The position numbers and the translations under genes are program-made. The notes below the pieces were generated by a model. That model did not search any database and was not told the origin of the DNA. It saw nothing but the letters and a program-made list of their open reading frames with translations. Positions 11,806 through 28,940 of a stretch of 64,000 bases of DNA are shown here, piece after piece. The first letter of the stretch is position 1. Each line of letters begins with the position of its first letter. The DNA is from Rubrivivax sp. Its GTDB lineage: Bacteria; Pseudomonadota; Gammaproteobacteria; Burkholderiales; Burkholderiaceae_C. Location: the NCBI GenBank assembly GCA_021298085.1, contig JAJTDE010000002.1, positions 1-64,000 on the forward strand, written 5' to 3'.

Positions 11806-13431
11806 ATGCCCACTCTGTTGTCGACACTCGCTGTACGCAGCGAAGACTTCAAGCAATCGGCCGCCGCGATGCGCGCGCTGGTTGAAGACCTTCACGCCCG
11901 CCTTGCACTCGTTGCTCAGGGCGGCGGCGATGGCCCGCGTGCCAAGCACCTGGCGCGCGGCAAGCTCTTGCCACGCGACCGTGTGGAATGGCTGCTGGAC
12001 CCCGGTACTGCGTTCCTCGAGATAGCGCCGCTGGCCGCCATGGGCCTCTACCCGGAACCGGATGGGCGCGATGCGGCACCCGGCGCGGGCATCATCACCG
12101 GCATCGGCCGGGTCAGTGGTGTCGAGTGCGTGATCGTGTGCAACGACGCGACCGTCAAGGGCGGGACGTACTACCCGATGACGGTCAAGAAGCACCTGCG
12201 TGCCCAGGAAATTGCCCAGGCCAACCGCCTGCCCTGCCTGTATCTGGTGGATTCGGGCGGTGCCAACTTGCCCAACCAGGACGAGGTGTTTCCAGACCGC
12301 GATCACTTCGGCCGCATCTTCTACAACCAGGCCAACCTGTCGGCGCAGGGCATTCCTCAGGTCGCGGTGGTGATGGGTTCGTGCACCGCGGGCGGCGCCT
12401 ACGTGCCCGCCATGAGCGACGAGACCATCATCGTCAGGAACCAGGGCACGATCTTCCTGGGCGGGCCGCCGCTGGTGAAGGCGGCCACGGGCGAGGTGGT
12501 GAGCGCCGAAGATCTGGGTGGTGGCGATGTGCACACGCGGCTGTCGGGCGTGGCAGACCATCTCGCCGAAGACGATCGTCACGCCTTGGCGCTGGCCCGG
12601 CAGGTGGTGGCCAACCTGAACTGGCGCAAGCCCGAACAACTGCGTCTGCAGGACCCCAGGCCGCCGCGGTTCGACCCGATCGAGCTGCATGGCGTGATAC
12701 CGACTGACCCTCGCAAGCCGTTTGATGTCCGGGAAATCATCGCCCGTGTCGTGGACGACTCGGCGTTCGATGAGTTCAAGGCACGTTTCGGCGCCACGCT
12801 GGTGACGGGCTTTGCGCACCTCGAAGGAATGCCCGTGGGCATCATCGCCAACAACGGCATCCTGTTTGGCGACAGCGCACTGAAGGGCGCGCACTTCATC
12901 GAGCTGTGTTGTCAGCGTCGCATACCGCTGGTGTTCCTGCAGAACATCACGGGTTTCATGGTCGGCCGCAAGGCCGAAAACGAAGGCATCGCCAAGCACG
13001 GGGCCAAGCTGGTCACCGCCGTGGCCACGGCGACGGTTCCTAAGTTCACCGTCATCATCGGGGGCAGTTTTGGGGCCGGCAATTACGGCATGTGCGGCCG
13101 TGCCTATTCACCCCGGTTCCTGTGGATGTGGCCGAATGCACGCATCAGCGTCATGGGTGGCGAACAAGCGGCCAGTGTCCTGGCAACGGTCAGGCGGGAT
13201 GGCATTGAGGCGCGGGGTGGACAGTGGTCTGCCGACGAGGAGGCGCGTTTCCGGCAGCCGATCCTCGAGCAGTTCCAGCAGCAGTCACACCCTTATTACG
13301 CGTCGGCACGACTCTGGGACGACGGCATCATTGACCCAGCCGATACACGCCGCGTGCTCGCACTGGGCTTGTCGGCCAGTCTGAATGCGCCGATCCCCGA
13401 CGCTCCGAAATTTGGCATCTTTCGCATGTGA
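11806..13431 (+). CDS. 3-methylcrotonyl-CoA carboxylase beta subunit (carboxyltransferase)
   Basis: [85 protein letters not shown]. Confidence 0.93.
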
Positions 13432-14319
13432 CGCGGCGGTGGCCGCTGTGTTGGCCTTGCTGCCAGCGGCTGCCGTTGCGCTGTTTGACACCGGTAGGAC
13501 ACGTCCCTGGACTACCGCTTGCCGGAGGAAGTCTTTCGTGTGTGGGCCGATGCGCTGGAGCTGGAGGTCACGGTCTTCAGGCCGTCATCACCCGGCCCAC
13601 ACTCGGTGGTCGTGGTGAACCACGGCCGCGCACCTTCGCCACCACGCTTGCAACCACGTTACCGCCCCGGCCACCGTGGTGGTGATGGGCCCTTCACACG
13701 GCGGCCTGGCCACGCTGGCCTACGGCGCAACACCATTGCGTGGAGCGCGATTGCTGGTCAATCTCCGGTGGATTGCGTGTCCCGGCATGCCCTGACTGGG
13801 AGCACCGTCTGGTGAACGCGATGGCCAGCCTGGCGCGGAGCCTTTGATCGCTACGTGGCTCTCGGGGGCCTGGCTGCCCTGCATGAAGTGGGGCCTTTCG
13901 GCGATGACGGCCACCTCCTGTTTGCGTCGCGGACGGGTGTGCCGCGCTGGCCGCCGCCGGTGCTTCAACAGATGGCTGCCCAGGGTTTGCCCACAGCGTT
14001 GCAGACGCGACTGGACACCTTGCTCCACGCGGCAGAGGCGCCCGCGTCGCCACTTCACGAGCCCGCCACCGAGGCCGATGTCAGCCACGTGGCGACCCTC
14101 AGGCCATCGGCGCGCCGCGCCTACCGCGAGTGGCTGCGGGACCTGCCCCCCACGGCATTTGCCTTGAGCGCCGACGGGCGCCACTGGTCGGTCGTCTGGG
14201 GCGAAGCCCAGCCGATCGGCAAGGCCTTGCAGGAGTGCAGACGGCAGGCGGCTGCGCGCTGCAGGCTGTTGTCGGTCGATGGCTTCCTGGTGGCAGGTTC
14301 GGCACTGCCCCCGCACTGA
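13430..14319 (+). pseudogene. Decayed secreted alpha/beta-hydrolase (dienelactone-hydrolase-like)
   Basis: Consecutive protein-like fragments in shifting frames: signal-peptide-like AAVAAVLALLPAAAVALFDTG; EEVFRVWADALELEVTVFRPSSPGPHSVVVVNHGRAP; VVVMGPSHGGLATLAYGATPLRGARLLVN (GxSxG-type elbow); DWEHRLVNAMASL; FDRYVALGGLAALHEVGPFGDDGHLLFASRTGVPRWPPPVLQ... Confidence 0.65.
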
Positions 14320-14462
14320 CCGTCGTCGTTGACCAGCCCCTGTCGGGCGGTCATGGGTGCACCACCACAAGGGTGCACTGACTCGAAGGGGCACCCAGCA
14401 TGTGCAGGGATTCGATCGGCGGACCGAGGCAGGTAACGTCACGCCTGCTGTGAGAACCCGCG

Positions 14463-15101
14463 ATGACTGACCCTGCTGCCCTTGCTCACCTGTCCGTGTC
14501 CGCCTTGCCTGATGCCGCCGCCTGGTTGGCTCTGGCGGTCCTGGCGTCGTTCCTGTGTGGGTTCAGGCCCTTTGCGGTAGTCCTTTGTCTGTCGCTGGCC
14601 GGTGCGCATGGCTGGCTTGAGCTGCCAGGGGGTCTGCCGCTCACATCACCGTTTGCACTGACCGTGTGTGCCGTGCTCGCAGCTGCCGAGCGCTGGGCTG
14701 ATACGCGCGCGCTGGCTGGCCACCCTGAAGACCTGCTGCTGTCTGCCATGCGTGTTCCTTGTGGCGCCTTGGTGCTCGGCGCGGTGGCCATCGAGTCCTG
14801 GGGCGCGTGGGGTTGGTGGCTCTTGCCGCTGGGCGCCGCATTGGCCCTGTCGGGCCAGGCACTCAAGGCGGCGCTGCGAAGCCTGGGCACGCTGCTGGGC
14901 TGGCGTCGGACGGTGCACTTGGTCGCTCTGGCCCTTGACGTGAGCGTTCCGCTGCTGATGGTTCTGGCCTGGCATCGGCCAGCGCTTGGGCTGGCGCTGT
15001 TGGCACTGCTGCTGCTGGTGGCGTTGCCCACGGCCGTGTGGTGGGTTCGCGAGCTGCGCAGCCGTTGGCGGCGATGGGCATTGCTGATCGGACAGCCCTG
15101 A
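14463..15101 (+). CDS. DUF4126-like membrane protein
   Basis: 212 aa, several TM segments; GFRPF...GAHGWLELP...AAERWADT...RVPCGALVLGAVA resembles DUF4126. Confidence 0.55.
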   Translation: MTDPAALAHLSVSALPDAAAWLALAVLASFLCGFRPFAVVLCLSLAGAHGWLELPGGLPLTSPFALTVCAVLAAAERWADTRALAGHPEDLLLSAMRVPCGALVLGAVAIESWGAWGWWLLPLGAALALSGQALKAALRSLGTLLGWRRTVHLVALALDVSVPLLMVLAWHRPALGLALLALLLLVALPTAVWWVRELRSRWRRWALLIGQP

Positions 15102-15254
15102 GGCCCTCAGGGACCTGCCCAGACACGCCCAATGGGGCAGTGCGTTTGGTGGCCTGCGGGTCTGCGAGCGTGGGCTGACCCGGGCAAGCCACTACCATCG
15201 CTGAATCTGTCATCCGCCCCGTGCCCGCAGCGGCACGTTGTCCGGTTCCTCGCG

Positions 15255-17279
15255 ATGTTCAAGAAGATTCTCATTGCCAATCGGGGCGAGATTGCCTGCC
15301 GTGTTGCCGCGACCGCCAGACGCCTGGGCGTGCGCACAGTGGCTGTCTGCTCCGAAACCGACCGGCACGCCCGGCATGTCCAGGCCTGCGATGAACGGGT
15401 GCTGTTGGGCGGACACAGCGCCCGAGACAGCTACTTGCGCTGGGAGCGCATCATCGAGGCGGCTCGCTCAACCGGCGCACAGGCCATCCACCCAGGCTAC
15501 GGTTTCCTGTCGGAGAACGCAGACTTTGCCCAGGCCTGTGCCGACGCGGGCATCGTCTTCATCGGTCCGCCGGCTTCCGCCATCCGTGACATGGGCAGCA
15601 AGGCGGCAGCCAAGACGCTGATGGAGCGCGCCGGGGTGCCGCTGGTGCCGGGCTACCACGGCACCGACAACAGCCCTGATCGCTTGGCATCGGAGGCCGA
15701 GCGGATGGGGTACCCCGTGCTGATCAAGGCCAGCGCGGGGGGGGGTGGGCGTGGTATGCGCCGGGTGGATCACCCCGCTGACTTTTCCGAGGCACTGTTG
15801 AGCTGCCAGCGCGAAGCCAAGGCCAGTTTCGGTGACGACCACGTGCTGGTGGAGCGTTATGTGACGCGGCCGCGACACATTGAGATCCAGGTGTTTTGCG
15901 ACACCCACGGTCAGGCGTTGTACCTGTTCGAGCGGGACTGCTCTGTGCAGCGTCGTCATCAGAAGGTGCTGGAAGAGGCGCCGGCCCCAGGGCTGAGCAC
16001 ACAGCGACGTGCCGAGATGGGCGCTGCAGCCGTGGCGGCCGCTCGGGCCGTGGGGTACGTGGGGGCTGGTACGGTGGAGTTCATCGCCGAAGAGCGAGAC
16101 GACGGCGACCTGCACTTCTACTTCATGGAAATGAACACCCGGCTGCAGGTCGAGCACCCGGTTACCGAGGCCATCACCGGGCTTGACCTCGTGGAATGGC
16201 AGTTCAGGGTAGCCAGTGGCGAAGCCTTGCCTCTGACGCAGGAGCAGCTGCAGATTCACGGCCATGCCATCGAGGCGCGCATCTGTGCCGAAAACCCGGA
16301 AGCCGGTTTCCTGCCGGCCACGGGGCCGTTGTCGGTGATGCGCTGGCCCGCGCACGTGGCATTCCAGCGCAGCCACGAGTCGACGCGCGTGGATACCGGC
16401 TTTGCCGAGGGCGACGAGATCAGCCCCTTCTACGACTCGATGATCGCCAAGGTCATCGTGTGGGGCGCCGACCGCCAGCAGGCCTTGGCGCGACTGGACG
16501 ATGCCTTGCGGGATACCCACATCGTGGGCCTGCACACCAATGTGGCCTTCCTCAGGCGTGTGGTGCAGTCCCGTGCATTTGCCACCGCTGACCTGGATAC
16601 GGCGCTCATTGAACGAGCGCGCGCGGTGGTCTTCGGCCCGAGCCTGCTGGGCTCCGAATGGGTGGTGGCCGCCTTGGTGGCGCATACCCTGGCGCAGGAG
16701 CAACAGTGCGAACGCAACGACACCCGCCACGACCCCTTCAGCCGGCGTGATGGTTGGCGCCTGTCGGGTGGGTCCAGACGGCGGCTGGACCTGCGTGTGG
16801 AAGGAGCGTCATGCAGCGTTGTGCTGGAGCGGCAACGCGACGGCGCGCTGCAGATGCACCTTGAGACCGCCTCCTGGCCTTTCCAGTGCCAGAGCCGGGG
16901 TGCTTGCCAGCATCTGGTGATGCTGGGTGAAGAGCAGCGTCTCCTGACGGTGTATGCGGTGGGTGACGAGCTCACCGTCTTTGGCCAGGCAGGCCGCGCG
17001 ACGGTCAGCGTCGTTGACGCGCTGGCCCAGTTGTCCCAGAGCCCTGCCCAGGACGGTGGCCTTTGCGCGCCCATGCCGGGCAAGCTCGTGTCCTACCTCG
17101 TCCGTGAAGGTGAGGCCGTCAAGCGTGGCCAGGCGTTGGCGGTCATGGAGGCGATGAAGATGGAACACACGCTGCATGCGCCCCGCGATGGGGTCATCGA
17201 GCAGTGTCTCTATGCCGTGGCGGACCAGGTCCCTGAAGGGGCGGCTGTGATTCGCCTGAGCCAGGAGGCCGCGGCATGA
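15255..17279 (+). CDS. 3-methylcrotonyl-CoA carboxylase alpha subunit (biotin carboxylase + biotinyl domain)
   Basis: MFKKILIANRGEIACRVAATARRLG; SAGGGGRGMR; EMNTRLQVEHPVTE; C-terminal VMEAMKMEHTL biotin site. Internal ATG chosen. Confidence 0.95.
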   Translation: MFKKILIANRGEIACRVAATARRLGVRTVAVCSETDRHARHVQACDERVLLGGHSARDSYLRWERIIEAARSTGAQAIHPGYGFLSENADFAQACADAGIVFIGPPASAIRDMGSKAAAKTLMERAGVPLVPGYHGTDNSPDRLASEAERMGYPVLIKASAGGGGRGMRRVDHPADFSEALLSCQREAKASFGDDHVLVERYVTRPRHIEIQVFCDTHGQALYLFERDCSVQRRHQKVLEEAPAPGLSTQRRAEMGAAAVAAARAVGYVGAGTVEFIAEERDDGDLHFYFMEMNTRLQVEHPVTEAITGLDLVEWQFRVASGEALPLTQEQLQIHGHAIEARICAENPEAGFLPATGPLSVMRWPAHVAFQRSHESTRVDTGFAEGDEISPFYDSMIAKVIVWGADRQQALARLDDALRDTHIVGLHTNVAFLRRVVQSRAFATADLDTALIERARAVVFGPSLLGSEWVVAALVAHTLAQEQQCERNDTRHDPFSRRDGWRLSGGSRRRLDLRVEGASCSVVLERQRDGALQMHLETASWPFQCQSRGACQHLVMLGEEQRLLTVYAVGDELTVFGQAGRATVSVVDALAQLSQSPAQDGGLCAPMPGKLVSYLVREGEAVKRGQALAVMEAMKMEHTLHAPRDGVIEQCLYAVADQVPEGAAVIRLSQEAAA

Positions 17280-18202
17280 CGCCGGTTTACCCACTGCCGT
17301 CTGCCGTCACGCTGGTGGACGTCGGCCCGCGCGACGGCCTGCAGAACGAAGCCACAGTGGTGCCAGCCGAGGCCAAGGTCGAACTGGTGCACCGGCTGCA
17401 GGCGGCGGGTCTGCGGGAGATCGAGGTCACGAGTTATGTGAGCCCCAAGTGGGTGCCGCAGATGGCGGATAACCATTCGGTCATGGCAGGAATACAGCGC
17501 GCCGCCGGCGTTCGCTACGCCGTGCTGACCCCCAACCTCCGCGGCTTCGAGGATGCCTTGTCAGACAAGCCCGATGAGATCGTGGTGTTCGGCGCAGCCA
17601 GTGAAGCCTTCAGCCAGCGCAACATCAACTGCAGCATTGACGTCAGCATGGAGCGCTTCCGCCCTGTGGTGGCCGCTGCCCGTGATCACGGCATCAAGGT
17701 TCGGGGTGCGATCTCGTGCGCGCTGGGCTGCCCCTACCAGGGCGAGGTCACGGCCGACGAGGTGGAGCATGTGGTGCGCCTGATGAAGGACATCGGGGTG
17801 CAGCACTGTGGAGTGGCCGACACCATTGGCGTTGGCACCCCCGCGAAGGTTCAGGCGGCCCTGGAGAGGGCCCTGAAGCATTACCCGGTGGAAGAGGTCA
17901 GCGGGCACTTTCACGACACCTATGGCCAGGCGTTGGCCAACATCTACGCGTCGCTCCAACTGGGGGTGCACGTCTTTGATGCCAGTGTCGGTGGCTTGGG
18001 AGGTTGCCCCTACGCCAAGGGTGCCACGGGCAACGTGGCGACCGAGGATGTCGTCTACATGCTGCATGGGCTGGGCATCCACACGGGCATCGACCTGGAC
18101 GCCCTGGTGGATGCCGGTGCCTACATCTCCGGCGTCATCGGGCGTCCGACCGCCTCTCGCGTCGCGCGGGCGCTGATGGCCCGGCGAGGAGCCGCCGCAT
18201 GA
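17276..18202 (+). CDS. Hydroxymethylglutaryl-CoA lyase
   Basis: VTLVDVGPRDGLQNEATVVPAEAKVELVHRLQAAGLREIEVTSYVSPKWVPQMAD; GHFHDTYGQALAN; GGLGGCPYAKGATGNVATEDVVYMLHGLG. Confidence 0.96.
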   Translation: MTPVYPLPSAVTLVDVGPRDGLQNEATVVPAEAKVELVHRLQAAGLREIEVTSYVSPKWVPQMADNHSVMAGIQRAAGVRYAVLTPNLRGFEDALSDKPDEIVVFGAASEAFSQRNINCSIDVSMERFRPVVAAARDHGIKVRGAISCALGCPYQGEVTADEVEHVVRLMKDIGVQHCGVADTIGVGTPAKVQAALERALKHYPVEEVSGHFHDTYGQALANIYASLQLGVHVFDASVGGLGGCPYAKGATGNVATEDVVYMLHGLGIHTGIDLDALVDAGAYISGVIGRPTASRVARALMARRGAAA

Positions 18203-19733: not shown

Positions 19734-20042
19734 ATGGACGCAGCTCTCGCTTCCAAGATCGCCGGCCACCCGAAATACCAGGAACTGAAGAGCAAGCGCT
19801 CCAGTTTCGGTTGGTGGCTAACGGCCGCAATGATGATCGTCTACTACGGCTTCATCTTGCTCGTGGCATTCAACAAGCCGTTCCTGGCTTCGCGCCTGGG
19901 CGAGGGTGTGATGACCATGGGCATCCCCGTGGGCCTGGGCGTCATCCTGTTCACGATTGTCATCACGGCCATCTATGTGCGCCGAGCCAACAGCGAATTT
20001 GATTCGCTGGCCGAAGAACTCAACAAGGCGGTGCTGAAATGA
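19734..20042 (+). CDS. DUF485 domain membrane protein
   Basis: 102 aa; [38 protein letters not shown]; directly upstream of the actP-like gene. Confidence 0.92.
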
Positions 20043-21751
20043 CGCCCAAGCACTTTTTCATCGCCGCTGGTCTGTCGTGCGCCACCGCAGCGGCCATGGC
20101 CGCTGGGGCTGACCTCGGTCAGGCCGAAAAGCAGGCCACCAACTGGACGGCGATCGCCATGTTCGGCATCTTCGTGGCGTTCACCCTGTGGATCACCAAG
20201 TGGGCTGCAGCCAAGACCAAGAGCGCTGCCGACTTCTACACCGGCGGCGGCGGCATCACCGGCTTCCAGAATGGCCTGGCCATCGCGGGCGACTACATGT
20301 CGGCTGCGTCGTTCCTGGGCATTTCGGCGGCCGTGATGGCCAGTGGCTTTGACGGTTTGATCTACTCGATCGGCTTCCTGGTGGGCTGGCCGGTGGTCAC
20401 CTTCCTGCTCGCCGAACGCCTGCGCAACCTCGGCAAGTTCACCTTTGCCGACGTGGCCGCCTTCCGCTTCGAGCAAGCCCCGGTTCGGGTGTTTGCCGCG
20501 TCAGGGACGCTGGTGGTGGTGGCGTTCTACCTGATCGCGCAGATGGTGGGTGCTGGGCAGCTGATCAAGCTGCTGTTCGGCCTGGAGTATTGGATCGCGG
20601 TGGTCATCGTGGGTGGCCTGATGATGGTCTATGTGCTCTTTGGTGGCATGACGGCCACCACCTGGGTGCAGATCATCAAGGCCATCATGCTGCTGTGCGG
20701 TGCGTCCTTCATGGCGTTCATGGTGCTGCTGCAGTTTGGCTTCAGCCCTGAGGCGATGTTTGCCAAGGCGGTCGAGATCAAGACCGGTCTGGCCACCAAC
20801 GCCGGCAAGACACCCGAGGAAGCAGCCAAGGCGGGCTTCTCCATCATGGGCCCCGGTGGCTTCGTGAAGGACCCGATCTCCGCCATCAGCTTCGGCATGG
20901 CCTTGATGTTCGGCACGGCGGGACTGCCCCACATCCTGATGCGCTTCTTCACGGTGCCCAACGCCAAGGAAGCGCGCAAGTCGGTGCTGTGGGCGACCAC
21001 CTGGATCGGCTACTTCTACATTCTGACCTTCATCATCGGCTTTGGCGCCATCACCTTCGTGCTGACCAACCCGCAGTTCCTGGACGCCAAGGGCGCGCTG
21101 CTGGGTGGCAACAACATGGCGGCGGTGCACCTGGCCAACGCCGTGGGCGGCAACGTGTTCCTGGGCTTCATCTCGGCCGTGGCGTTTGCCACGATCCTGG
21201 CGGTGGTGGCAGGCCTGACGCTGTCGGGCGCTTCTGCCGTGTCGCATGACCTCTACGGCACCGTGCTCAAGAAGGGCAAGGCCGACAGCGCCAGCGAGCT
21301 GCGCGTCTCGAAGATCACCACCGTCGTGCTGGGCGTGGTTGCCGTGGTGCTGGGCATCGCCTTCGAGAAGCAGAACATCGCGTTCATGGTCTCGCTGGCC
21401 TTTGCGATTGCCGCGTCTGCCAACTTCCCGGTGCTCGTGATGAGCGTGCTCTGGAAGGGCTGCACCACCCGCGGCGCGGTGATCGGCGGTTTCCTGGGCC
21501 TGATCAGCTCGGTGGCGCTGACGGTGGTCTCACCAGCCGTGTGGGAAGCCACGCTGGGCAACCCCAAGGGCTCGGCCTGGTTCCCGTATGCCAGCCCTGC
21601 GTTGTTCTCGATGACCATCGGCTTTGTGGGTATCTGGTTGTTCTCCCTGTTGGACGGCAGCAAGCGTGCCGCCACCGACAAGGCGGGCTTCCTGGCACAG
21701 CAGGTTCGCTCAGAGACAGGCATCGGTGCAGCCGGCGCCTCTGGCCACTGA
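20039..21751 (+). CDS. actP: Cation/acetate symporter (SSS family, ActP-like)
   Basis: 570 aa SSS protein; [63 protein letters not shown]. Confidence 0.92.
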
Positions 21752-21865: not shown

Positions 21866-23341
21866 TTGAACACCGTGGACGTCCGATCCAACCTTCTCCG
21901 CCATCCTGAGCCGCAGCGCGAAATGCTCGCGCTGATGACGGCGCGTGTGCGGGACGCTGTCCTCCTGCAACCGTTCTATGTGGATGGCTCGCAGGACCTC
22001 GTCAGTGTCTGCCGCGCGCTTTCAGAGCGAGGTTTGACCCATGCCCTGGTTCGCGACACGCTGGATGGCGAGCCACGTCTGGGCATCTTCACGACCACCG
22101 ACCTGCGTGATGCGCTGCTGCGCCCGCAGCCGCCTGCAGAGCTCGCGGTGCGAGAGGTGGCGCATTTCGCGTTGCTGGACATCCAGGCTGACGCCGAAGT
22201 GTTCGAGGCCTTGTGGCTGATGGTCAAGCACCGTGTACACCGCCTGCTGGTTCGCGAAGGTGATGCGGTATTGGGTGTGCTGGGCCAGCTCGAGCTCGTC
22301 AGCCTGGTGGCCAACCATTCCCACATCATCGCGCTGCAGATCGACGAGGCCCGCAGTGTGGATGAACTTCAAGGCGCGGCCCAGCGCATTGACGAGGTGA
22401 TTGCCTTGCTCCACGGCAGCGGCATCCGCATCGAACGCATCACCCGGCTGGTCAGTGAGCTCAACACGCGGTTGTTCGCGCGCGCCTGGGCCCTGATCGC
22501 GCCGCCGGAACTGGTGGCCAACAGCTGCCTCATCGTGATGGGCAGCGAAGGGCGCGGCGAGCAAATCCTCAAGACCGACCAGGACAACGCCCTGCTGCTG
22601 CGCCCCGGCGCCGAGTGGCCGGGTCTGGCTGAGGTGACCCAACGCTTCAGCGACGCCCTCAGTGCCTTTGGTTACCCGCCGTGCCCGGGCCAGATCATGC
22701 TGACCCATTCGCCCTGGTGCCAACCGCTGGATCGCTTTCAGGACACGATCCGAGGCTGGCTCTATGGGCATGGCCAGGGCCCCGAACCCGATGGCATGAT
22801 GCACATGGCCATCTTCTTCGACGCGGCCCGCGTGGCAGGCGATGCCAGTCTGTTGGCCGATGCACGGGCCTACCTGGACAGGATCCTGTCGGGTCAGGAT
22901 GCCTTGCTGGCCCGCTTTGCGGCAGCGGCAGACCAGTTCCAGGAGTCCGGCAACTGGTTCACGCGCCTGACAACCCGACGCGACGAACAGCTCATCGACT
23001 TGAAGAAGCTGGGCACCTTTCCCATCGTGCACGGCGTGCGGGCCTTGTCCCTGGCCCACGGGGTACGGGAGGCCGGCACCGCGGCTCGGCTGCAGCGGCT
23101 GGTGGCGCTTGACAAGCTCGACGCCGATCTGGCCCGTGACCTGGTGGATGCGCTGCACTACCTGATGGGGCTGCGCTTGTCGCATCAGCTGCGCCAGCGT
23201 GCCGGCGGCGCACGGCCGGGCAATGAGATCCGTGCCAACGAACTGGGCCCGCTGGAGCGCGAGCCGCTTCACGATGCCTTGGCCATCGTCAAGCGATTCC
23301 GCCAGCACCTGCGGCTGCACTTCAAGCTGGATGCGCTGTGA
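21866..23341 (+). CDS. DUF294 nucleotidyltransferase-like protein with CBS domains
   Basis: VMGSEGRGEQILKTDQDNALLL nucleotidyltransferase motif; N-terminal CBS pair (THALVRDTLDGEPRLGIFTTTDLRDALL). Confidence 0.9.
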   Translation: MNTVDVRSNLLRHPEPQREMLALMTARVRDAVLLQPFYVDGSQDLVSVCRALSERGLTHALVRDTLDGEPRLGIFTTTDLRDALLRPQPPAELAVREVAHFALLDIQADAEVFEALWLMVKHRVHRLLVREGDAVLGVLGQLELVSLVANHSHIIALQIDEARSVDELQGAAQRIDEVIALLHGSGIRIERITRLVSELNTRLFARAWALIAPPELVANSCLIVMGSEGRGEQILKTDQDNALLLRPGAEWPGLAEVTQRFSDALSAFGYPPCPGQIMLTHSPWCQPLDRFQDTIRGWLYGHGQGPEPDGMMHMAIFFDAARVAGDASLLADARAYLDRILSGQDALLARFAAAADQFQESGNWFTRLTTRRDEQLIDLKKLGTFPIVHGVRALSLAHGVREAGTAARLQRLVALDKLDADLARDLVDALHYLMGLRLSHQLRQRAGGARPGNEIRANELGPLEREPLHDALAIVKRFRQHLRLHFKLDAL

Positions 23342-23363
23342 GCGGCGCGCGGGCCTCTTCACC

Positions 23364-23600
23364 ATGTTGAACAAGCTGCTGACCCAACGGCTGCTGGCGC
23401 TGTTTGCCGTGGCCGCCCTGTTGTTCAACTTTCCGCTGCAGCAGTGGTGGACTGGTAGACCCTGGGCTGCGTTTGTGCTCTGGGGCGGCGTGATCGCCTG
23501 CCTGGCGTGGTTGATGGAGCGCTCGGCGCCTGCCGCTGACGTGGCGGATGACGACGCGTCGCCGCCCGAACGCGGGGCGCAGGACAGCGCAGGGACCTGA
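23364..23600 (+). CDS. Small membrane protein (single TM pair)
   Basis: 78 aa, MLNKLLTQRLLALFAVAALLFNFPLQQWW...AAFVLWGGVIACLAWLMERS; between DUF294 and SSS-kinase genes. Confidence 0.65.
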   Translation: MLNKLLTQRLLALFAVAALLFNFPLQQWWTGRPWAAFVLWGGVIACLAWLMERSAPAADVADDDASPPERGAQDSAGT

Positions 23601-23602
23601 CC

Positions 23603-26290
23603 GTGTCACCGGTGACTCCTGCGCTCAGCTTCAGTGTGCAGCCACTGCCCACGAGCTGGGTGCTGGGTGCGTCCTTTGCGTACCTGGCGCTGCTGTTTGG
23701 TGTGGCTGCATGGGCTGATCGCCGTGCGCAGCAGGGGAGGTCCGTCATCTCCAACGCCTGGGTCTATTCGCTGTCGATGGCCGTCTACTGCTCGGCGTGG
23801 ACGTACTTCGGCAGTGTGGGGAGAGCCGCCGCCAGCGGTACCGGCTTCCTTCCGATCTACCTGGGGCCGACCTTGGCCATGGTGCTGGCCTGGGTGGTGC
23901 TGCGCAAGATGATCAGGATCGCGCGGCAGTACCGCATCACCTCCATTGCCGACTTCATCGCCAGCCGGTACGGCAAGAGCCGGGCGCTGGCGGGACTGGT
24001 GACGCTGATCGCGCTGGTGGGTGTGGTGCCCTACGTCGCGCTGCAGCTCAAGGGAATTGCGGTGGGGCTGTCGGTGATGACCGGGCAGGACATGGCCGGC
24101 ACCACGGGCTGGTTTGGGGATGGCACCTTCTATGTGGCCCTGGTTCTGGCGGGTTTCATCATGGTCTTTGGCACACGCCACCTGGACAACGCCGAACGGC
24201 ATGAGGGCATGGTGGCGGCGATTGCCGCAGAGTCGGTTGTGAAGCTGCTGGCATTCCTCGCGGTGGGCTGGTTTGTGGTGTTCGGGCTGTTCGGTGGGCC
24301 GGCGGACTTGATGAACCGCGCACAGGCCAACCCGGCCGTGGCGCGTGTGCTTCAACCTGAACCGGCGCTGGTTGGAGGATCCTGGTTTGCGCTGGTGCTG
24401 CTGGCCATGCTCTCGGTCCTGATGCTGCCGCGGCAGTTTCAGGTGATGGTGGTCGAGAACGTCGACGAGCGCCATGTCCGGCGTGCAGCCTGGGCGTTTC
24501 CGGCCTACCTGCTGGCCATCAACATCTTTGTGCTGCCGGTTGCCCTGGCCGGGCTGCTGCTGATGGGCGACGGCGCCAACCCCGAGATGTTTGTGCTGAC
24601 GCTTCCGCTGGCCCACCAGCAGCCGATGCTGGCGCTGCTGACCTTTGTGGGTGGCCTTTCAGCTGCCACGGGCATGGTGATCGTGGAGGCCATTGCCGTG
24701 TCGACCATGGTGTCCAACGACCTGGTGCTGCCGTTGCTGATGCGTCGGCGCGGCTTCTTCCAGCGCCACGACATGACGGGTGTCCTGAAGGGCATTCGAC
24801 GGGCGGTCATCGTGGCGCTGCTGATGCTTGGCTACGCCTATTACCGGATGGCCGGCGAGGCTTATGCCCTGGTCAGCATTGGCCTGATCAGCTTTGCCGC
24901 TGTCGCGCAGTTTGCTCCGGCGTTGCTGGGTGGCTTGTACTGGAAGGGCGGGACACGCGCTGGGGCGCTGGCGGGCCTGAGTGTGGGCGCGCTGTTGTGG
25001 GCCTACACGTTGATGCTGCCCTCACTGGCGAAATCGGGCTGGATAGCCAGTGCGTTCATCACGCAGGGCCCAGCCGGGATCGACTGGCTGCGGCCTGAGG
25101 CCTTGTTCGGCATTGAGGGGATGGATTCCCTCACGCATGCGCTGTTCTTCAGCTTGTTGGCGAACATCTCGCTGTATGTCTTCGTGTCGCTTGCCTGGCC
25201 TGCCGATGCCCGGGAGGCCGGCCAGGCGGTGCGTTTTGTCGATGTCTTTGACCGGGCAGCGGCTGGCCGGATCTTCTGGCGCGGCCGCGCACGTGTCGAC
25301 GCGCTGCAGGCGCTGCTGGGACGGTTTGTCGGCGCCGAGCGGGCGCAGCAGGTGATGCTGGCGTATCGTGCCCGCCCGGGTGTGGCCGAGGCCGGGAGCG
25401 AGCTGGCCGATGCCGGGCTGGTTCACCACGTCGAGACGCAGCTGGCCGGCGCCATTGGCAGCGCATCGGCGCGGGTGATGGTGTCGTCCGTGACCGAGGA
25501 AGAACACCTGAGCCTGGACGATGTGCTGACGATCGTCGAAGAGGCCGGTGAGCTGCGGCAGCTGAACGAGAAGCTCAAGAGCCTGGACAGGCTCAAGGAC
25601 GACTTCATGTCGTCGGTGACGCATGAACTGCGAACCCCCTTGACCAGCATCCGCGCCTTGGCCGAGCTGATGCGCGACGACCCTGACATGCCTGCCGAGC
25701 AGCGCGCGCAGTTTCTGGCCATCATCGTGGCCGAGAGCGAGCGGCTGTCACGCCTGGTGAACCAGGTGCTGGACATGGCCAAGATCGAGAGCGGCCACGC
25801 CGAATGGCGAACCGACTCCATCGACTTGCGTGACCTGCTGCAGCAAGCGGTGGCCGCGACCGGCGAGCTGTTCAGGGAGAAGGGCGCACGGGTGGCATTG
25901 GAGATACCCGACACCGTGGCGCACCTGCGCGCTGATGCTGACCGCCTGACCCAAGTGGTGGTGAACCTGCTGTCCAACGCCGCCAAGTTTGTGCCCGCAG
26001 GCCGCGGCCTTGTCCACGTGCAGCTGCAGTGCGACGCCGAGCGCGCGCTGATCACAGTGAGTGACAACGGCCCTGGCGTGGCAGCGGAGCAGCAGCACAC
26101 CATCTTCGAGCGATTCAGACAAGGCGGCGATGACCGTCATCGACCACAGGGCACCGGGCTGGGCCTGCCGATCAGCCGGCAGATCGTCGAGCACTTCGGC
26201 GGCCGACTGTGGCTGGATTCCACACCTGGGCAGGGGTCGCGCTTCAGCTTCTCGCTGCCCTGGACACCGCAGAAGGAGACGCCCCCATGA
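23603..26290 (+). CDS. Hybrid sodium:solute symporter-sensor histidine kinase (CrbS/CbrA-type architecture)
   Basis: N-terminal SSS transporter (about 13 TM) then DHp SVTHELRTPLTSIRALAELM, N box NLLSNAAKF, G1 SDNGPGV, G2 GTGLGLPISRQIVEHFGG. GTG start. Confidence 0.92.
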   Translation: MSPVTPALSFSVQPLPTSWVLGASFAYLALLFGVAAWADRRAQQGRSVISNAWVYSLSMAVYCSAWTYFGSVGRAAASGTGFLPIYLGPTLAMVLAWVVLRKMIRIARQYRITSIADFIASRYGKSRALAGLVTLIALVGVVPYVALQLKGIAVGLSVMTGQDMAGTTGWFGDGTFYVALVLAGFIMVFGTRHLDNAERHEGMVAAIAAESVVKLLAFLAVGWFVVFGLFGGPADLMNRAQANPAVARVLQPEPALVGGSWFALVLLAMLSVLMLPRQFQVMVVENVDERHVRRAAWAFPAYLLAINIFVLPVALAGLLLMGDGANPEMFVLTLPLAHQQPMLALLTFVGGLSAATGMVIVEAIAVSTMVSNDLVLPLLMRRRGFFQRHDMTGVLKGIRRAVIVALLMLGYAYYRMAGEAYALVSIGLISFAAVAQFAPALLGGLYWKGGTRAGALAGLSVGALLWAYTLMLPSLAKSGWIASAFITQGPAGIDWLRPEALFGIEGMDSLTHALFFSLLANISLYVFVSLAWPADAREAGQAVRFVDVFDRAAAGRIFWRGRARVDALQALLGRFVGAERAQQVMLAYRARPGVAEAGSELADAGLVHHVETQLAGAIGSASARVMVSSVTEEEHLSLDDVLTIVEEAGELRQLNEKLKSLDRLKDDFMSSVTHELRTPLTSIRALAELMRDDPDMPAEQRAQFLAIIVAESERLSRLVNQVLDMAKIESGHAEWRTDSIDLRDLLQQAVAATGELFREKGARVALEIPDTVAHLRADADRLTQVVVNLLSNAAKFVPAGRGLVHVQLQCDAERALITVSDNGPGVAAEQQHTIFERFRQGGDDRHRPQGTGLGLPISRQIVEHFGGRLWLDSTPGQGSRFSFSLPWTPQKETPP

Positions 26291-26655
26291 ACACCAAGAC
26301 GGTCCTGATCGCCGACGACGAGCCCAACATCCTGATCTCCCTGGAGTTCCTGATGAAGCGCGAAGGCTGGCAGGTCAGTGTGGCCAGGGATGGCAACGAA
26401 GCGCTGGCAGCGATCCAGAAGCAACGCCCTGACCTTGTCCTGCTGGACGTGATGATGCCTGGTCGAAGTGGGTATGACGTGTGCCAGGCCGTGCGTGCCG
26501 ACGAGAGCCTCAGTGGCGTCAAGATCCTGATGCTGACGGCCAAGGGGCGTGACACCGATGTTGCCCAGGGGCTGGGCGTGGGCGCCGATGCCTACATGAC
26601 CAAGCCGTTTTCCACCAAGGACCTGGCGGCCAAGGTCCGGGAGATGCTGTCGTGA
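26287..26655 (+). CDS. Single-domain response regulator (REC only)
   Basis: 122 aa; LIADDEPNILISLEFLM, LVLLDVMMPGRSGYDVC, MLTAKGRD, MTKPFSTKDL; no output domain. Confidence 0.95.
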   Translation: MNTKTVLIADDEPNILISLEFLMKREGWQVSVARDGNEALAAIQKQRPDLVLLDVMMPGRSGYDVCQAVRADESLSGVKILMLTAKGRDTDVAQGLGVGADAYMTKPFSTKDLAAKVREMLS

Positions 26656-28940
26656 GTGTGGCATCGCGCGCCTCCTCGCGACGGCTGCCGGCCGCCTGGG
26701 CGGCCCGCATGGCCGCAGCGGCACCCGCGGTGGTGATGGCATGGCTGCTGCTGGCCTGTGCCGTCGCCCTGTGGGCACCCTTGCCGCCTGCGCAGCGCGA
26801 CGAGCTCTGGCGCCTGCTCGAAGGCCGGCTGGCGCTGGTCTTGATGCTGTGGTGTGTGTCGGCATTGGCCCTGGGCGCATGGGTGCACAGTTGGTGGCTG
26901 CGGCACGCCGCTGCCCCGGGGCGAATGGCTGAACAGCTCACGGTGCTGCTCAACAGCAGCGGCAACGAGGAACTGCCTGCCGAGCGTTACCAGGGCAGTT
27001 CGGAGGTGGGTGAGCTTGCGCAGGCCGTCAACGCATTGATCAGACAACGCGCGGCCCTGAGGGCAGACTTTGACGCCCAGGTGCAGCAGGCCAGCAGGGA
27101 GATTGAGCAGGAGCGCAACCGCCTGGCGGCTTTGATGGCCGAGCTCACTCAGAGTGTGGTCGTGTGCAACCTCGATGGCCGCGTGCTGCTGTTCAATGCG
27201 CGCGCAAGGCTGCAGTTCCGAGCGCTGGCCGATGGCCCGAACCTGGGTGGGGCGCAGGCGTTGGCGCTGGGGCGCAGCATCCACGCTGTGCTTGACCGCA
27301 AGCTGGTGGCGCATGCGCTGGAAAGTGTGCAGGCGCGGCTCCTGCGCGGTGCGCCCAACCCCACCGCCCAGTTTGTGACCAGCACCCGTGGAGGCCAACT
27401 GCTCAGGGTTCAGCTGGCACCGGTGCGGGCCGTGCAGACCACCAGCGAGGACAGCACGCGCCCCCTGGAGCAGGGCGCCGCCGACGGGCTCGACCTGCCG
27501 CAGTCCCCAACGCCGCCGCGGTTGCCGACGACTGCGCTGGCGGGTTATGTGCTGATGCTCGACAACATCACGCGCGACTTTGCCGACGAGTCGGCGCGCG
27601 ACCAACTCATCCACCAGTTCACCGAAGCCAGCAGAGCCTCTCTGGGTAGCCTGCAGGCGGCCGTCGAACTGCTGGAGGAGCCTGAGCTGGACTTGCCCAC
27701 GCGGGAGCGCTTCCAAGGCGTGGTGCGGGAAGAGGCCGGTGCGATGGCCGAGCGGATCCAGCAGCTGGCCCAGCACACCACCCAGACGCTCAAGACCCGC
27801 TGGCCACTGGAGGAGATGCTCGGCGCCGATCTGGTGGCGGCTGCCGTGCGACGGATTGGCGCACAGGCCGGGTGCCGCGCCGATGTGGCCGAGGTGGATG
27901 CCAGCCTGTGGCTTAAGGTGGACAGCTTCTCGCTGATCCAGACCTTGGCCTACCTGGCACAGCGTCTGGCCGACGAATACGACATCAAGCGGGTGCAGTT
28001 GCGCCTGCAGGCCCAGGGTGCACGGGCACAGCTCGACCTGATCTGGTTTGGGCAGGCCATGAGCACAGAAACCGTGATGGGCTGGGAAACCGACGCGATT
28101 CGGGTGGGCCAGGAGAGCAGTGCGCTGACGGTGCGTGATGTGGTGCAGCGGCACGGCGGCGCGTTTTGGCTCGAACGCGAAAGGGTGAGGCAGGCTGCGT
28201 TCTTCAGGTTCCTGCTGCCCTTGTCGGCCGAGTCCACCGAGCCGCTGGACAGCGCCCTGGTGATGCACAGCGAAAGTCGCCCGGAGTTCTATGACTTCGA
28301 CCTCTTCAAGGCAGGCCAGAGCCAGTCCCATGAGCTGGCCGACCGACTGCTGGCCGAGCTGGGCTACACCGTCTTCGACACCGAGACGACGGGCCTGGAT
28401 CCGTCAGGTGGAGACGAGATCATCCAGATCGGTGCCACCCGCGTCGTGGCTGGCAAGTTGCGCCGGCAGGATTGTTTTGAACAGCTGATCGACCCGCAGC
28501 GAAGCCTGCCGGCGGCCAGCGTGGCCATCCACGGCATCCAGCCCGAGATGGTCAAGGGCCAGCCCACCATCGCCGTGGTGCTGCCCGCATTCCACGCATT
28601 TGCGGCCGACAGTGTCTTTGTGGCGCACAACGCCGCCTTTGACATGCGCTTTCTGCAGCTGAAGGAGCAGAGCACCGGTGTGCGCTTCGACCAGCCCGTG
28701 CTCGATACCCTCTTGCTGTCGGCCATCATCCACCCACAGCAGGAAAGCCACCGCCTGGAGGCCATTGCAGCGCGTCTGGGGGTGCAGGTGCTGGGCCGGC
28801 ACACGGCCTTGGGTGATGCGCTGGTGACCGCCGAGGTCTTTCTGAAGATGCTGCCGCTGCTGCAGGAGAAGGGCATCCTGACGCTGGGCCAGGCCATGGA
28901 GGCCTCCCGACAGACGCGGTTTGCCAAGGTGACGTACTGA
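26652..28940 (+). CDS. Membrane sensor/pseudo-histidine kinase fused to a DEDDh 3'-5' exonuclease (Pol III epsilon-like)
   Basis: 2 TM + HAMP-like + PAS-like + degenerate kinase region, then DEDDh motifs [36 protein letters not shown] start overlaps the REC stop. Confidence 0.85.

Follow-up and report, generated by a model that had tools for sequence, protein, structure and literature searches.

A membrane-bound pseudo-histidine kinase fused to a PolC-type exonuclease and linked to an SSS-type sensor kinase: a candidate two-component pathway with a nuclease output

Two-component systems mostly act through transcription factors or second-messenger enzymes, and we know of no description of a nuclease in this role under the control of a pseudo-kinase. 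Whether such an output exists is the question raised by a 64,000-nucleotide stretch of Rubrivivax sp. (contig JAJTDE010000002.1, positions 1 to 64,000; hereafter the window), which encodes a protein of 762 residues that joins a kinase-like region to an exonuclease. A search of the open-access literature returned no report on this fusion, on fusions of histidine kinases with DnaQ-like proteins, or on a nuclease as two-component output. The gene is found in the following setting:

20039..21751, + strand: ActP-like SSS symporter (Pfam SSF, E 1e-118)
21866..23341, + strand: putative nucleotidyltransferase with CBS-DUF294-DUF294_C architecture (Pfam)
23603..26290, + strand: SSS-type (CrbS/CbrA-like) sensor histidine kinase with intact catalytic motifs (Pfam HisKA, E 6e-20; HATPase_c, E 2e-29; translation)
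26287..26655, + strand: single-domain REC response regulator with complete phosphosite (DD/D/T/K; Pfam Response_reg, E 5e-29)
26652..28940, + strand: fusion protein, TM-TM-coil-PAS-pseudo-histidine kinase-DEDDh exonuclease, 762 aa, GTG start (ORF translation, Pfam, AlphaFold model)

The REC gene overlaps its neighbours by four nucleotides at both ends, with ATGA (26287-26290) at the junction with the SSS kinase and GTGA at the junction with the fusion. The reading frame of the fusion and its GTG start, overlapping the REC stop, are as originally described; the translational coupling that the original prediction derived from this overlap is supported, and an SD-like GGAG lies about 9 bases 5′ of the start. 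The translated SSS kinase displays the motifs HELRTPL, NLLSNA, DNGPG, and GTGLGL. Because it yields no Pfam SSF match, its SSS label rests on sequence, hydropathy pattern, and alignment to relatives, across which its N-terminal transporter region aligns. The partner regulator consists of REC only (123 aa or less by Pfam) and carries no DNA-binding HTH. A small hydrophobic ORF (23352-23600, + strand) immediately 5′ of the kinase gene occupies the position of cbrX 5′ of cbrA as given in PMC6591292, a likeness by position. Ahead of the symporter, genes at about 11806-18202 (+ strand) resemble those for leucine/acyl-CoA degradation, including acyl-CoA carboxylase subunits and an HMG-CoA lyase-like protein, as judged from the translations alone.

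What the fusion could sense or do by itself can be read from its parts:

26709..26891, + strand: two transmembrane helices, residues about 20-45 and 58-80 (hydropathy; model helices 7-41 and 46-101)
27147..27437, + strand: PAS domain, residues 166-262 (Pfam PAS_4, 24.4 bits, cut-off 23.1; contains a conserved stretch of 18 residues)
27570..27794, + strand: DHp-like helical hairpin, residues 307-341 and 348-381 (profile match, alignment, AlphaFold model, Foldseek)
27810..28223, + strand: degenerate CA (HATPase_c-like) domain, residues 387-524, with N, G1, and G2 boxes lost (alignment, profile, model, Foldseek)
28275..28307, + strand: conserved linker, residues 542-552, core RPEFYDF (alignments)
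28362..28871, + strand: PolC-type DEDDh 3′-5′ exonuclease domain, residues 571-740, with D576, E578, D664, H717, and D722 (Pfam, NCBIfam, PDB comparison, alignment)

The two predicted transmembrane segments are borne out by hydropathy, and the loop between them is very short (hydropathy and AlphaFold model), so that no periplasmic sensor domain is evident. Between these helices and the PAS domain, where the HAMP/coiled region was proposed originally, the model places a long helical stretch, and the hint of HAMP stays below the Pfam cut-off (E 0.1; 13.4 bits versus 25). The description of the protein as a membrane sensor is, in that wording, unsupported, since a periplasmic domain is not apparent and the HAMP match is sub-threshold. 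The PAS-like region, in contrast, was recovered by Pfam; it belongs to the best-kept parts outside the nuclease, its Cys172 (within VVVCN) is invariant in an alignment of 45 sequences, and it is still present in fusion members that lack a neighbouring REC or carry a pseudo-exonuclease.

For the kinase-like region, neither HisKA nor HATPase_c gave a Pfam match within 26652-28940. A profile of residues 296-540 (45 relatives) aligns with VicK in full length (E 5.5e-6), pairing LSHELRTPL with sLTEGSRASL. In the AlphaFold model (mean pLDDT 83), a mixed alpha/beta CA fold comes after a helical hairpin; the full-length model has a pTM of 0.38, which makes its domain placement unreliable. Foldseek against the PDB returned 244 matches at E<=1e-3 for this region (best E 2.5e-10), the best 50 of which are histidine kinases or kinase-fold proteins, and among the matches listed are HK853, DivL (E 1.2e-9), WalK, RetS, and ChpT (4fmt, E 1e-7). 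The TM-scores lie in a moderate range (0.4-0.5), which would be expected if DHp and CA are oriented differently. Judged from the profile and from the comparison of the model by Foldseek, the middle region of the fusion is thus a genuine DHp-CA kinase fold.

As a kinase, this core is predicted to be catalytically dead. The site corresponding to LSHELRTPL reads FTEASRASL in the window, with Glu325 (codon 27624-27626) in place of the acceptor histidine, and His occurs at this position in none of 138 sequences: the 81 close ones have Glu, Asp, Gln, or Gly, the 57 further ones E (35), D (7), R (4), Q (3), P (3), T (2), N (1), V (1), and M (1). In the family, yLAxRL stands where kinases have the N box NLLxNA, and the glycines of G1 and G2 are gone. 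Many kinases carry a phosphatase Thr or Asn at acceptor+4; here, Ala or Ser is found in most close members. An ordinary kinase overlooked by eye, that is, a normal core with a conserved histidine, is hence ruled out by Pfam, by the alignment, and by an acceptor that is never His, and the pseudo-histidine kinase of the original prediction is confirmed, with the kinase fold now supported by structure prediction as well. ChpT shares the degenerate DHp-CA fold and, having kept a phosphorylatable His, acts as a phosphotransferase, which the fusion, devoid of such a residue, cannot be. On the question of an origin by duplication, the pseudo-kinase profile matches other kinases about as well as the neighbouring SSS kinase.

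The exonuclease, by contrast, looks active from its residues. RNase_T covers residues 574-730 (Pfam, E 2e-34, 119.8 bits), and D576, E578, D664, H717, and D722, the complete DEDDh set claimed at the outset, are invariant in all 81 close sequences; the set is complete in 54 of the 57 others (135/138 overall). All five catalytic residues are shared with PolC, DinG, and DnaQ. The nearest solved relatives, which act on DNA, are the exonuclease domains of PolC and DinG (41-42 % identity to that of T. maritima PolC, 2p1j, over about 165-171 columns), and unlike these the fusion comes with neither polymerase nor helicase. TIGR01406 (DnaQ, DNA polymerase III epsilon), whose cut-off is 222.7 bits, scores 105.6 bits, and none of the NCBIfam matches listed reaches an equivalog cut-off. 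In 185 genomes, the exonuclease profile gave 261-425 bits for fused members, 203 bits for one standalone protein, and at most 120 bits for everything else; by these scores, the fusion exonucleases appear as a subfamily clearly apart from DnaQ. The standalone member, the only one among the 185 genomes, is a 203-aa protein of genome G126, which shares the stretch L210:6134-15217 with an SSS symporter, a CBS-DUF294 gene, a CbrA-like SSS kinase, and a regulator of the NtrC type. The linker in front of the domain is near-invariant in its RPEFYDF core even between distant clades, its YDF is kept in catalytically dead copies, and the model is of low confidence there. A beta-clamp motif in the linker, DFDLF, was considered and rejected because the second clade conserves no part of the linker other than RPEFYDF.

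That the two halves were joined by an artefact can be discarded: each of the 80 best relatives is a full-length fusion, and every intact relative checked in the later surveys carries both halves (53 of 53 intact pseudo-kinase ORFs). The 80 loci stem from Burkholderiales, Rhodocyclales, Thiofilum/Thiothrix, Colwellia, and Wenzhouxiangella. Surveys with the pseudo-kinase profile (E-values per genome, start codons uncurated) at the level of class, order, and phylum covered 369, 300, and 399 genomes and gave strong matches in about 19, 19, and 34 of these, respectively, counted from the result tables; the fusion occurs in several classes of the phylum. Its distribution suggests that it is old and stable.

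The gene immediately upstream of the fusion is REC in 72 of 78 testable close (clade 1) loci and, by profile, in 44 of 57 others, part of the remainder being cut by contig ends, and nearly all linked copies of REC keep an intact phosphosite (two acidic residues, Asp, Thr/Ser, Lys). An SSS-type sensor kinase is often adjacent as well, ahead of REC and fusion in clade 1 and behind the two in clade 2; the tree needs a single change of order, and the linkage of the three genes has thus survived a rearrangement. Fourteen members have no adjacent REC, most of them with an intact nuclease, and eight such genomes were searched whole. The SSS kinase and REC are at other sites of the genome in G449, nearby on the other strand in G311, and together with a second copy of the fusion in G397 and G068, and the whole-genome search of G387 and G635 recovered no close SSS kinase or REC at useful similarity. 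Ten of the 13 REC-less loci examined adjoin an SSS symporter and/or a DUF294 gene. From these loci and the surroundings of the standalone exonuclease, SSS-type transport and sensing emerges as the broadest constant association of the fusion, with REC as the constant partner of its main lineages. Genes of the CBS-DUF294-DUF294_C type found at 21866-23341 recur beside SSS symporters and DEDDh exonucleases, be they fused or separate.

One lineage departs from this pattern in two respects at once. In loci L116-L118, which belong to one genus, the sole one of its family in the data set, the exonuclease residues are lost while the pseudo-kinase persists, and the upstream REC has its acidic pair DD changed to VS or SP with the central Asp kept. 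These genomes contain no close orthologue of the SSS kinase, only a distant one (36 % identity) elsewhere, and the REC-fusion pair sits between imuB and dnaE2, inside the imuA-imuB-dnaE2 mutasome locus (L116:5509-10246; L117:5213-10193 and 13210-16332; L118:1-6226). The copy may possibly have been co-opted as a structural accessory of translesion synthesis. The joint decay of REC pocket and nuclease would fit a functional link between the two, yet it represents one evolutionary event.

A precedent for a kinase core turned reader is DivL of Caulobacter, which recognises the phosphorylated single-domain regulator DivK and needs Arg553, at acceptor+3, for binding DivK~P (PMC4211667). DivL and the fusion share PAS, DHp, and CA domains (21 % identity; Foldseek E 1.2e-9), the replacement of the acceptor His (Tyr in DivL, Glu in the fusion), an Arg at acceptor+3 (Arg328 in the fusion), and a single-domain regulator as partner, predicted in the case of the fusion; they differ in output, which is control of the kinase CckA for DivL, whereas the fusion ends in an exonuclease. 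Arg328 is Arg in 114 of 115 REC-linked and 11 of 14 REC-less members. Fisher tests suggest that Arg328 and Glu325 are associated with REC (p 0.004 and 0.002), an association that loses its significance once phylogenetically independent pairs are compared. Covariation between REC and DHp (APC-corrected mutual information, 96 REC-kinase and 116 REC-fusion pairs) did not stand out in an analysis whose positive control was weak.

From these parts, their conservation and linkage, and the catalytic residues that they have lost or kept, as seen in sequences and predicted structures, we infer the kinase steps, REC binding, the switching with its sign, and the substrate of a three-gene module. The SSS-type kinase (23603-26290) is the likely sensor: it would respond to a small substrate, probably a carboxylate, being available or taken up, autophosphorylate, and pass the phosphoryl group to the single-domain REC. 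As the DivL precedent and Arg328 lead us to propose, REC~P would then dock on the DHp helices of the membrane pseudo-kinase encoded next to it, which, having neither phosphoacceptor nor ATP-binding boxes nor the usual phosphatase residue, could only read the state of REC and is better regarded as its receiver. Docking may alter the conformation or the dimer of the PAS/pseudo-kinase core and thereby switch the attached 3′-5′ exonuclease, which would trim single-stranded nucleic acid near the membrane, more likely RNA than DNA, RNA being guessed because the setting is one of metabolic regulation. We give this module, with REC~P acting as DivK~P does on DivL, a probability of roughly 45 %. The REC-less members with intact nuclease speak against a strict requirement for REC, and control of the nuclease by the other domains, part of the original prediction, is likewise something that we infer.

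Another, in our estimate rather unlikely, explanation is that the protein is a membrane-tethered nuclease whose pseudo-kinase serves only as dimerisation and positioning scaffold, with REC acting on an unlinked partner and the genes being together because they share a regulon with SSS symporters and DUF294. The REC-less members, which keep the nuclease mostly next to symporter or DUF294 genes, would be expected from it, as would the standalone relative beside SSS symporter, DUF294, and SSS kinase, and a separate RNase_T of Pseudomonas putida, pp_0353, lies in a CBS-gene operon of the MxtR/ErdR regulon and affects growth on pyruvate (PMC9927547). It accounts less readily for REC being the most constant immediate neighbour despite the permuted gene order, for the common decay of REC acidic pocket and nuclease residues in one lineage, or for a kept regulator-docking helix with a nearly invariant Arg at acceptor+3.

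A further, improbable reading makes the fusion its own sensor, with PAS or the transmembrane region taking up a ligand or redox signal that controls the nuclease, and REC modulating or incidental. The strong conservation of PAS, the invariant Cys172, and the persistence of the domain in REC-less and pseudo-exonuclease members point this way; a periplasmic domain is missing, however, the PAS match in the window is barely over its cut-off, and PAS domains also contribute to regulator recognition in DivL (PMC4211667), so that their conservation does not single out ligand sensing. Work in DNA replication or repair, proofreading-like and tied to growth on particular carbon sources, seems very improbable: the kinship to PolC and DinG and the lineage within the imuA-imuB-dnaE2 cassette would suit it, but precisely that lineage is without catalytic residues, no clamp-binding motif is conserved (DFDLF is not kept in the second clade), and the genes usually found beside the fusion are of the transport and acetate type.

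The three-gene module resembles CrbS/R (MxtR/ErdR) and CbrA/B in its sensor, an SSS transporter domain fused to HisKA-HATPase, and CrbS/R also in its neighbourhood of ActP-like symporter, CBS-DUF294 protein, and DEDDh exonuclease. There, the output is a DNA-binding regulator accompanied by a separate small exonuclease; here, the regulator is REC only and the exonuclease is fused to the pseudo-kinase. In P. putida, the RNase_T gene pp_0353 forms an operon with the CBS-domain gene pp_0354 within the MxtR/ErdR (CrbS/R) regulon. Deleting pp_0353 slows the onset of growth on pyruvate, an effect for which the authors speculate on mRNA decay as the mechanism (PMC9927547). The module described here is a candidate mechanism for this link and, being kept across classes of Pseudomonadota, offers a concrete test of whether carbon-source sensing acts directly on RNA or DNA ends; if so, nutrient sensing may directly control a nuclease, beyond transcription alone. 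The further idea of a widespread two-component pathway with nuclease output, in which nutrient uptake exerts control directly at the RNA level, is a tentative one. In addition, the natural series of active, REC-less, and doubly dead members lends itself to the study of pseudo-kinase control over an enzyme. A derivation of the fusion from an exonuclease of the pp_0353 type was considered and is unsupported: loci such as L122, L186, L187, and L188 have the fusion together with a separate small exonuclease, and these small proteins score only 22-50 bits with the A4 profile. The pp_0353 protein is likewise a separate one and, if it is like them, less similar by profile to the fusion exonucleases.
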